Part shown: in pieces, positions 17,185 to 20,102 of the stretch
How positions within the stretch are numbered: position 1 is the first letter of the stretch
Layout: each line of letters starts with the position of its first letter
DNA from: a virus
Virus record (IMG/VR): IMGVR_UViG_3300034073_001491
Span: 1-37,492 of that record
DNA length: 37,492 bases
Direction: 5' to 3' (one strand)
The notes under the pieces: generated by a model
The model's input: the letters and a program-made list of their open reading frames with translations, nothing else
What the model was told of the DNA's origin: nothing
The model's database searches: none
Made by a program: the position numbers and the translations under genes

Positions 17185-17230
17185 GGGTGGCCGGGAATCG
17201 AACCCGGCACGGCGGCCATACCGCCCACCC
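17185..17230 (-). ncRNA. 46-nt tRNA-like structure
   Basis: On the minus strand GGGTGG and CCACCC close a 6-bp acceptor-like stem. Inside are a small hairpin (GCGG-TATGG-CCGC), a four-base linker and a perfect T-arm, CCGGG-TTCGATT-CCCGG, with the invariant T-loop bases. No D-arm exists and a normal 7-base anticodon loop cannot be formed. It lies in a 130-base gap between genes. Could be a truncated tRNA, a tRNA-mimic processing site, or remnant of a host tRNA 3' end. Confidence 0.45.
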
Positions 17231-17977: not shown

Positions 17978-18757
17978 CTAGTTCACCGGGAGGAAATGCT
18001 CCTGACACTCTTCGCACCCGATGCCCTTGGCGAGCACCTTGGCGCTTGCCCGGATTGAGTCACCGCACCCGCACACGGCCTTTCGGAGGTTCTTATCCCG
18101 GCCGGAGCCGCCACGGGAACCCGGGCCTGTCTTAGGACGTGCCCCGCCGCCACCGAAGACACCGAACCCGCCGGAGGCTCGTGGAGCCGCCACCGCTATG
18201 GCCTCGTCGAGGAGCCCGATAGCCTCCGCCCAACGTGCGGCGCACTCGTCCGACACCGTGGTGACGCTCCACCCGATGCCCTTGGCCTCGGTGATCGTGA
18301 GACCGAAGAGACCCTCGGCGGCCGCTTGGAATTTCTTATTGTGGCGGCCGTTCGAGTCCGTGTCACGAATCCCCGCCGCAATGTTGGCCGCATGGGCGGC
18401 CTCGTGAGCGACGGTCCCGAACACGTCACGAGCACCACGAGCGAGATTCTCACCGGAAACCATGATCTCATGGAACCCGGCCGTGGTGGTCACTGTCATT
18501 GGTGCGCCCATGGACACCGCCACCGCCCCGTAGGGGTAGTCGATGTCGAGCCCCTCCGTTTCTGTCTGCCACGTCGGCACTGTCGTAATGTGCCCCCATG
18601 CTCGTTGGTCACGCTTGACCACGAACACGGCCGGGAGAAGATCGAGCCCCGTGGCCGCCTTGACGGCGGGGGCGAGATGCTCCCGGTAGACCGTGTGGAG
18701 CGCCTCCACCACGGGAGCGAGAGTCACGCCCTCGCTCGTCCTTGTGTCTGTCTTCAT
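17978..18757 (-). CDS. SprT-like zinc metalloprotease
   Basis: A 259-residue protein, start ATG 18757 with AAGGGGAAC upstream. It has a HEAAH motif (His118, Glu119, His122) in GTVAHEAAHAAN and a likely third ligand His139 in GRHNKKF, as in SprT/gluzincin-like proteases. A Gly-rich linker leads to a C-terminal zinc ribbon (CGCGD...CEEC). In eukaryotes the SprT-like Spartan protease digests DNA-protein crosslinks; bacterial and phage members are little studied. Largest gene of the minus operon, near its promoter. Confidence 0.75.
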   Translation of the reverse strand: MKTDTRTSEGVTLAPVVEALHTVYREHLAPAVKAATGLDLLPAVFVVKRDQRAWGHITTVPTWQTETEGLDIDYPYGAVAVSMGAPMTVTTTAGFHEIMVSGENLARGARDVFGTVAHEAAHAANIAAGIRDTDSNGRHNKKFQAAAEGLFGLTITEAKGIGWSVTTVSDECAARWAEAIGLLDEAIAVAAPRASGGFGVFGGGGARPKTGPGSRGGSGRDKNLRKAVCGCGDSIRASAKVLAKGIGCEECQEHFLPVN

Positions 18758-18834
18758 GTGTTCCCCTTGTCTTGGCCTGTCTCATCAGTGGCGGGAGGCC
18801 ATTCCACGCCATACGCCCCGGAGGGCGTTTCGAC

Positions 18835-19071
18835 TCAGAGTGTCGGGCGCTCGCTGAGGGCGTGCTCCTTGGCGGCCGCCTCGGCCTTGGCCAACTCTCC
18901 ACGAAGATGCGAGAGGTTCTCTTCGAGCCCCTCGATAAGGTATTGTAGCCTCCGCACCCGGTTAAGGTGCTCGACCCACTCACGGTGCCACACGTCGAGC
19001 GCTCGAACCTTTGGGTCCGGTTGCCACGACGGTGCGCCCGTCGAGTCCATGAACGGTGCCTCAGTTGTCAT
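18835..19071 (-). CDS. Small coiled-coil protein
   Basis: A 78-residue protein starting ATG 19071 with AAGGGGAACAC upstream; the frame extends further but lacks a better site. After a Pro-rich N-terminus it is a single coiled coil (VRRLQYLIEGLEENLSHLR and onward). First gene of the minus operon. The 18 bases at its start match those of the SprT-like gene. Function unknown. Confidence 0.6.
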   Translation of the reverse strand: MTTEAPFMDSTGAPSWQPDPKVRALDVWHREWVEHLNRVRRLQYLIEGLEENLSHLRGELAKAEAAAKEHALSERPTL

Positions 19072-19706: not shown

Positions 19707-19796
19707 TCAGCCGACACCGTTTCGAGATATCTCTTCGATGATCTGTCGTTCATCACGCCGCTTGTTCCTCTTACGCAACAGGGCAAGGACGGTCAT
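19707..19796 (-). CDS. Possible 29-residue basic peptide
   Basis: MTVLALLRKRNKRRDERQ and an acidic-helical end form a plausible amphipathic peptide on the minus strand. There is no clear ribosome binding site, and it sits in the otherwise non-coding region, so it may be a chance ORF. Confidence 0.25.
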   Translation of the reverse strand: MTVLALLRKRNKRRDERQIIEEISRNGVG

Positions 19797-19930
19797 GGAT
19801 ACTTGTTGGTTGCAGGGAACATCGACCCACGTTTCCGTGTTTCATCTACCAGCAGAGTGCGATCCCCTACGTGGCCGTGGGTGCCTCGCCTGTCTCCCGA
19901 CGGTGAGGGCTTGCTCGGTTGTTGCGAAGT

Positions 19931-20065
19931 GTAGCAGGGTTTTGCGGCAGGAGTCGAACCTGCGACCAGACAGTTGCAACCTGTCGGTATGAATTCCCCG
20001 GACTTACCTAGTATCACCGTGCGTCCAGACAGTCCCGCCGATACTGCTTCGACAAAACCTGCTAC
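19931..20065 (-). ncRNA. tRNA-like element (TGC anticodon loop) with inserted segment; possible attachment site
   Basis: The minus strand has a perfect T-arm (GCAGG-TTCGACT-CCTGC), a 5-base variable loop, and a perfect anticodon arm (GACAG-GTTGCAA-CTGTC, anticodon TGC, Ala). The 3' acceptor CGCAAAA pairs with TTTTGTCG near 20050 (one bulge), followed by AA and a possible D-arm (GCAG, 11-base loop, CTGT). About 42 extra bases lie between D-arm and anticodon arm. Outside the acceptor the pairing continues (GTAGCAGG with CCCTGCTAC). A normal uninterrupted tRNA cannot be folded. It may be a disrupted tRNA, or an attP carrying a host tRNA 3' half. Confidence 0.5.
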
Positions 20066-20102
20066 CGGGAATCATAACGGCCGATGTGGTATCTTGCAAG
20101 GT

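Follow-up and report, generated by a model that had tools for sequence, protein, structure and literature searches.

The window, that is, the whole stretch of 37,492 nucleotides (nt) analysed here, is IMG/VR record IMGVR_UViG_3300034073_001491, a linear 37.5-kb phage contig that may be partial. It encodes a terminase, a portal protein, and a major head protein, the last having its closest named relatives in Streptomyces phages (~42% identity), and the host of the virus probably belongs to the actinobacteria. Adjoining the terminase gene (terL), the minus strand carries an element of about 135 nt (~20066-19931) that almost certainly specifies a transfer RNA (tRNA)-mimic RNA, judging from a conserved family of related sequences, strong covariation, and a promoter-like sequence of its own. 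The original prediction had described it as a tRNA-like element with a 42-base insertion, and its proposal of a tRNA-like RNA is supported by the comparisons reported below. The features of the element and its surroundings, in the direction of the RNA, are as follows.

20094..20099, minus strand: -35 box TTGCAA (TTGCAA-17-TATGAT)
20071..20076, minus strand: -10 box TATGAT, ending ~5-7 nt before the predicted 5' end of the RNA
19931..20066, minus strand: tRNA-like RNA (class A), matching the family descriptor with 0 mismatches at 19939-20058 and supported by covariation
20052..20065, minus strand: 5' strand of the extended acceptor helix (GTAGCAGG-TTTTGT), pairing with 19931-19945 with one bulged C
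20030..20050, minus strand: near-invariant D-arm GAAGCAGTATCGGCGGGACTG, whose loop A-NN-GG resembles A14, G18, and G19 of tRNA (24-member alignment)
19986..20029, minus strand: variable domain with helix P2, defined by sequence comparison (the "insert" of the original prediction)
19969..19985, minus strand: anticodon-like hairpin GACAG-GTTGCAA-CTGTC, a perfect stem with TGC at the would-be anticodon position
19947..19963, minus strand: T-arm GCAGG-TTCGACT-CCTGC, a perfect stem
19939..19945, minus strand: 3' strand of the acceptor (7 bp), preceded by a single unpaired C at 19946
19928..19933, minus strand: -10 box TACACT (extended TGC) of a second promoter-like sequence, just 3' of the RNA

The earlier description of the fold was borne out. 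The T-arm and the TGC hairpin are indeed perfect on the minus strand (19963-19947 and 19985-19969), the acceptor partner (GGTTTTG/CAAAACC) and a D-arm lie beyond the insertion, the latter directly 3' of the acceptor with its stem CAGT/ACTG within 20050-20030, and pairing continues outward past the acceptor for ~8 further pairs (GTAGCAGG/CCTGCTAC) with one bulged C. The inner part of this extended helix covaries in two related loci, L043 and L255. Against an expectation of 0.04, the window contains a single match to the T-arm pattern. The predicted folding energy is -50.2 kcal/mol (z = -2.4; 4 of 200 shuffled sequences folded equally well), and it is the comparative evidence (family register, covariation, and descriptor match) that is decisive in placing the element beyond chance. 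The 16-base direct repeat reported at 19959-19974/20018-20033 is real, with a 14-base core that is 93% identical, but its proposed duplication as the origin of the insertion does not hold because the repeat is not conserved in relatives (by eye, ~11/16 in L081 and L255, absent in L043).

Members of the family were collected in several ways. A terminase search gave 80 related contigs, two of which (L043 and L081) carry a clear homologue in the same place; the 5' part GAAGCAGTATCGGCGGGACTGT recurs in several others. When IMG/VR was scanned for the D-arm motif GAAGCNGTANNGGCGGGACNG, 38 stretches were obtained; in ~30 of these (duplicates counted) a T-arm lies downstream, together with a stretch complementary to the 7 bases preceding the motif, and 7 are chance matches that lack a T-arm. 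The same scan of 84,980 bacterial and archaeal genomes, with one position slightly stricter, returned 86 matches, among which the sole family member was a locus of Planobispora siamensis (L129). The family is therefore essentially phage-only (1/86 genome matches vs ~30/38 in IMG/VR). A further IMG/VR pattern built on the 3' part added L204 and L205, and relaxed 5' patterns added, among the matches listed, L255 and L258, both altered at position 4 only. A descriptor with five mismatches allowed recovered no further members among the compared loci, including ~670 kb of control loci. A DNA search of 299 genomes from the order of the Planobispora copy produced mostly GC-rich noise, and the two best extra candidates failed. 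BLAST searches of several members against named phages gave no match before a 32-nt query reached a single isolated phage, Microbacterium phage Rasputia. Altogether, at least 27 distinct members were identified, nearly all from phages and mostly from uncultured ones.

All members fit one plan, namely acceptor (7), C, GAAGCNGTANNGGCGGGACNG, 53-180 nt of variable domain, T-arm (5/7/5), one unpaired base, and acceptor (7), except that the T-loop of L106 has 8 nt and that L081, L103, L114, and L076 are short of one or two acceptor pairs. For the 16 core pairs in 24 distinct members, 98.4% of cells are paired, the covariation score is 0.783 vs 0.199 in shuffled alignments, and 106 cells show double changes (30 when shuffled). 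The D-stem pair at motif positions 6/20 is paired in 24/24 members and occurs as all four Watson-Crick types. Approximately 25 core cells are G-U pairs, which would become A-C mismatches if read on the opposite strand, implying that the RNA is encoded on the minus strand of the window. The D-arm sequence is almost frozen across the family and the acceptor sequence is free; the D-loop A-NN-GG-CGGG matches A14 and G18G19 of tRNA, the T-loop is UUCGACU, and no anticodon arm is found in its usual place. Comparison of the members shows a predicted fold composed of acceptor helix, D-arm, and T-arm, with a variable domain in place of the anticodon arm. Because relatives keep the same plan across more than 25 divergent versions, the 42-base insertion is the normal variable domain of the family, and the suggestion of a disrupted tRNA finds no support.

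Further base pairing lies within the variable domain. Helix P2, which has one mismatch in the window (GTCTG/CATAC), changes on both strands together, being GTCTG/CAGAC in L081 and L255 and GTTTAT/ATAAAC in L043. The anticodon-like hairpin shows compensatory changes in L081 and L255 (AACAG-ATTGCAA-CTGTT); this 5-bp/7-nt arm follows a 44-nt domain in the window, L081, and L255, whereas L043 and the A group lack it. A conserved internal loop, ACUAAG/AUUACG, interrupts a helix of the variable domain in the F and S groups, where 11 pairs in 12 sequences are 95.5% paired with a covariation score of 0.691 vs 0.205 shuffled (segments were excised and joined by a spacer for this alignment, and L099 was excluded because of an indel). 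As the variable domain could not be aligned across groups, no covariance model of the whole family was built.

Standard searches do not assign the element to a known class. ARAGORN found no tRNA or transfer-messenger RNA (tmRNA) gene for the window element, nor a tRNA when introns were allowed; among members, its intron-tRNA calls were confined to L084 and L103, both doubtful. No Rfam 15 family matches the window element at gathering score, and a relaxed scan aligns the T-arm only (tmRNA model RF00023, 8.1 and 13.1 bits vs the cut-off of 47). Several other candidates were rejected: weak relaxed Rfam hits to tRNA-Sec reflect merely the T-arm and neighbouring hairpins, a group I intron suggested by GACUA-like words has no Rfam hit, and a possible tmRNA tag frame after CUAAG-GCG in the F group, with a conserved stop, is not kept in the S group. 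By inspection, no tag reading frame is conserved across the members. The window element has no match to Y RNA at E values up to 10, and no Ro60/TROVE protein was seen in the open reading frames (ORFs) scanned with Pfam. The third acceptor pair (3-70) may be UA, AU, CG, GC, or mismatched and is never G-U, and neither this pair nor discriminator base 73 is conserved. Since the acceptor sequence, the 3-70 pair, and the discriminator base vary freely and several members have no regular anticodon arm, the RNA is probably not a decoding tRNA. As far as can be judged from its sequence, the RNA is not a tmRNA either, as it lacks the hallmarks of that molecule, and its D-loop differs from the GGUUUCGAC-type D-loop of 19 actinobacterial tmRNAs.

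Upstream of the element, the score of the sigma70-like promoter was matched by 0 of 400 random window positions. The same layout precedes L043, L081, L255, L063, and L103, and weaker promoters precede L053, L076, L087, and L105. In the majority of the remaining members, the S group excepted, a TANNNT -10 box is correctly spaced, the -35 boxes being poor and the statistics modest. The S group, apparently co-transcribed, shows no recognisable promoter, and its element starts 0-3 nt past a stop codon. In the window, the transcript would start near 20065 at GGTAGCAGG, the 5' end of the acceptor, and the RNA is probably transcribed separately. For the second promoter just 3' of the RNA, a TGCTAYANT-like sequence is conserved in L043, L081, L053, L063, L076, and L087. 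It belongs to a second conserved region of the minus strand (~19790-19930), in which an extended -10 sequence, TGCTACACT, leads to a small ORF; the segments GGGCTGTAC..GTTGCA..GCGGGGC and CACGGGAACGTGGGT recur in relatives, and this region is possibly a structured leader.

The genomic setting of the family varies. The element adjoins terL in the window group, the F group, and L103 (by name, the window, L043, L053, L063, L076, L081, and L103), lies between exonuclease-side genes and a DnaB-like helicase gene in the S group, among head genes in L084, and near a head-tail adaptor or glycosyltransferase gene in L101 and L083. A tRNA-Thr gene adjoins it in L076/L077, the unannotated Rasputia copy, at record positions of ~90,405-90,525, is located ~11 nt past tRNA-Trp and before tRNA-Tyr, and the Planobispora copy lies inside a 30-tRNA array. 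Such varied contexts around a constant RNA argue for a product that acts in trans. The 30-tRNA array of P. siamensis (L207, 19.9 kb) includes one four-base anticodon call (gtca). The tRNA cluster of Rasputia (L380) holds a second unannotated tRNA-like gene at ~2650-2770, with GGGACGG ... CCGTTCC, a D-arm, a T-arm, and an enlarged anticodon region.

Two other kinds of RNA element were observed in the window. At 17185-17230 on the minus strand, a 46-nt mini tRNA-like element lies between genes, just before a promoter-like TTGACC-17-TACTCT; it has a 6-bp acceptor, a D-like hairpin, and a T-arm (CCGGG-TTCGATT-CCCGG), and no anticodon arm. Approximately 10 further distinct examples occur on the same strand in related phages, with 0 in a 3-Mb shuffle, and the best Rfam match is mascRNA, below the cut-off. 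At 18771-18835, also on the minus strand, a Type II hammerhead ribozyme scores 43.5 bits, above the Rfam cut-off. It is present in the related L020, L022, and L057 as well, and lies 14 nt upstream of a minus-strand ORF (17978-18757), whose product is a PHROG_6361 protein with a weak, sub-threshold match to SprT-like metallopeptidases.

We propose, with a probability of roughly 0.5, that the element encodes a tRNA-mimic RNA acting in trans, which presents its elbow to a tRNA-handling factor of the host, most likely one in the SmpB pathway. A sigma70-type promoter of its own would drive leftward transcription of the RNA, beginning with the 5' base of the acceptor, and the closed end helix would stabilise the product. 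The elbow of the RNA, formed by the GG of the D-loop against UUCGAC of the T-loop, would be offered to a host protein that recognises elbows and not codons. The likeliest target would be the SmpB/tmRNA ribosome-rescue pathway, titrated in the way supposed for the tRNA-like domain (TLD)-only tmRNA of phage DS6A, and RNase P or another tRNA-processing factor would be the next candidate. Taken by themselves, the decoy role has about an even chance, and SmpB as the target is a doubtful choice. More generally, the family might be a hitherto undescribed class of phage-specific, anticodon-less tRNA mimics that are recognised through the frozen D-arm, with the interchangeable domain tailoring the RNA to different hosts. 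Such mimics, carried next to ordinary tRNAs in the tRNA clusters of some phages, would inhibit a host factor of translation or tRNA maturation; we give this idea somewhat less than an even chance.

Several points weigh against this proposal. Recognition by SmpB is a conjecture because the tmRNA-type D-loop is absent from the D-arm and the tmRNA model of Rfam scores the T-arm only, and the extra unpaired base between T-stem and acceptor, together with the 5-nt connector between acceptor and D-arm, is unlike both tRNA and tmRNA. Expression is predicted from a promoter-like sequence, and the protein target is a prediction from analogy. Furthermore, the match of acceptor and T-arm served to collect the members, so that the pairing in these parts is partly selected; the independent evidence is the constant register and the covariation of the D-stem, neither of which was used in selection.

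It is also conceivable that the fold serves as RNA punctuation, signalling cuts by RNase P and RNase Z in polycistronic transcripts, and that the released RNA is functionless. The S-group elements, placed immediately past a stop codon with no recognisable promoter, would suit such a role, as would further candidate processing elements that the same phages carry on the same strand, namely the mini tRNA-like elements and hammerhead ribozymes. However, in the window and most groups a promoter-like sequence would start the RNA at the acceptor, so that there would be no 5' leader to remove, and a near-invariant D-arm sequence would be needless for a mere cut signal, which makes this explanation unlikely. 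A tmRNA of divergent sequence, lacking a tag yet active in ribosome rescue, would share the anatomy of the family, with a large domain replacing the anticodon arm, and tmRNAs are carried by some phages (PMC4131195), the RNA itself sitting in two tRNA clusters. Nevertheless, G3-U70 occurs in no member, no tag frame is conserved, ARAGORN -m was negative in 26 members, and the Rfam and D-loop comparisons given above point away from tmRNA, so we consider this improbable. Likewise, the 7-nt loops of anticodon type that occur in the window, in L081/L255, and in the F and S groups might indicate a tRNA of non-canonical form or one with an intron, which would be spliced or would decode as tRNA-Ala(UGC) or a different isoacceptor. 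However, L043 and the A group have no such loop, the triplet differs among the loops that are present, conserved residues flank the loop on both sides, acceptor identity elements vary, and ARAGORN with introns allowed was negative for the window element; the probability of this reading is low.

Two further explanations concern the DNA or a cis-acting RNA rather than a free product. That the element serves the divergent terminase gene in cis, as a leader or packaging RNA, is suggested by its place beside terL in the seven loci named above, and is made very improbable by the members whose neighbours are genes for a DnaB helicase, a head protease, or a glycosyltransferase and by those in tRNA clusters, as well as by the G-U pairs, which fit only the strand pointing away from terL. 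The original prediction had also raised the possibility of a phage attachment site (attP) derived from a host tRNA's 3' half, given that a perfect T-arm and anticodon-like arm occur together as in the cores of tRNA-targeting attP sites. This is very unlikely: 0 of 395 Actinomycetes genomes match the 27-nt 3' half at ≤3 mismatches (the host may lie outside these), no integrase is present among the scanned ORFs of the window (a linear contig that may be partial), the 5' half is the most conserved in the family, which is not required of an attP core, and close relatives have a single locus beside terL.

Phage tRNA-like RNAs are known as a kind, and this family appears to be new. It has no Rfam 15 family and no annotation in Rasputia, the one named phage, and no paper describing it was found in the open literature, which covers only part of the journals. 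The programs used to annotate phage tRNA clusters and intergenic gaps miss this RNA, which explains why a structured RNA family that occurs in many environmental phage contigs and one isolated actinophage has had no name. The near-invariant D-arm gives a direct starting point in the search for the target, and with Rasputia the question can be put to the test in a laboratory host.

Compared with known systems, the family shares with tRNA the 7-bp acceptor, the A..GG of the D-loop, the UUCGACU T-loop, and the location in tRNA clusters, but differs in its 5-nt connector between acceptor and D-arm, the unpaired base before the 3' strand of the acceptor, the lack of a canonically placed anticodon arm, and the free acceptor identity. 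Bacterial Y RNA/YrlA also contains a tRNA-like module within a non-coding RNA, whereas the window element has no match to a Y RNA family. Like tmRNA (RF00023), which can be phage-borne, it has an acceptor, a D-region, and a T-arm, and a large domain takes the place of the anticodon arm; in contrast to tmRNA, it has no G3-U70 and no tag frame, has another D-loop, and is smaller (~110-240 vs ~360-390 nt). In an actinobacterial genome, we also observed an 81-nt TLD-only tmRNA (L252, G317:C13:64027-64107, plus strand) with G3-U70 and an encoded CCA, which scores 56.8 bits, above the Rfam tmRNA cut-off, was missed by ARAGORN, and is apparently a tag-less tmRNA of the DS6A type; its D-loop differs from that of the window RNA, and the two RNAs are distinct. 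The tmRNA of phage DS6A is little more than a tRNA-like domain (PMC4131195, PMC11915505), and a DS6A-like molecule is a strong inhibitor of tmRNA whether or not it can be charged, perhaps through titration of SmpB (PMC4131195; also PMC11915505). Both it and the present family are phage-encoded tRNA-like domains with neither an anticodon arm nor a tag frame, and the family is distinguished from this type by its D-arm, 5-nt connector, extra base before the acceptor, and large variable domain, although the DS6A RNA itself is set apart here by its published description and not by sequence. If the RNA is a decoy, it would provide a further case, after DS6A, of a phage attacking a tRNA-handling step of its host by means of a tRNA mimic.
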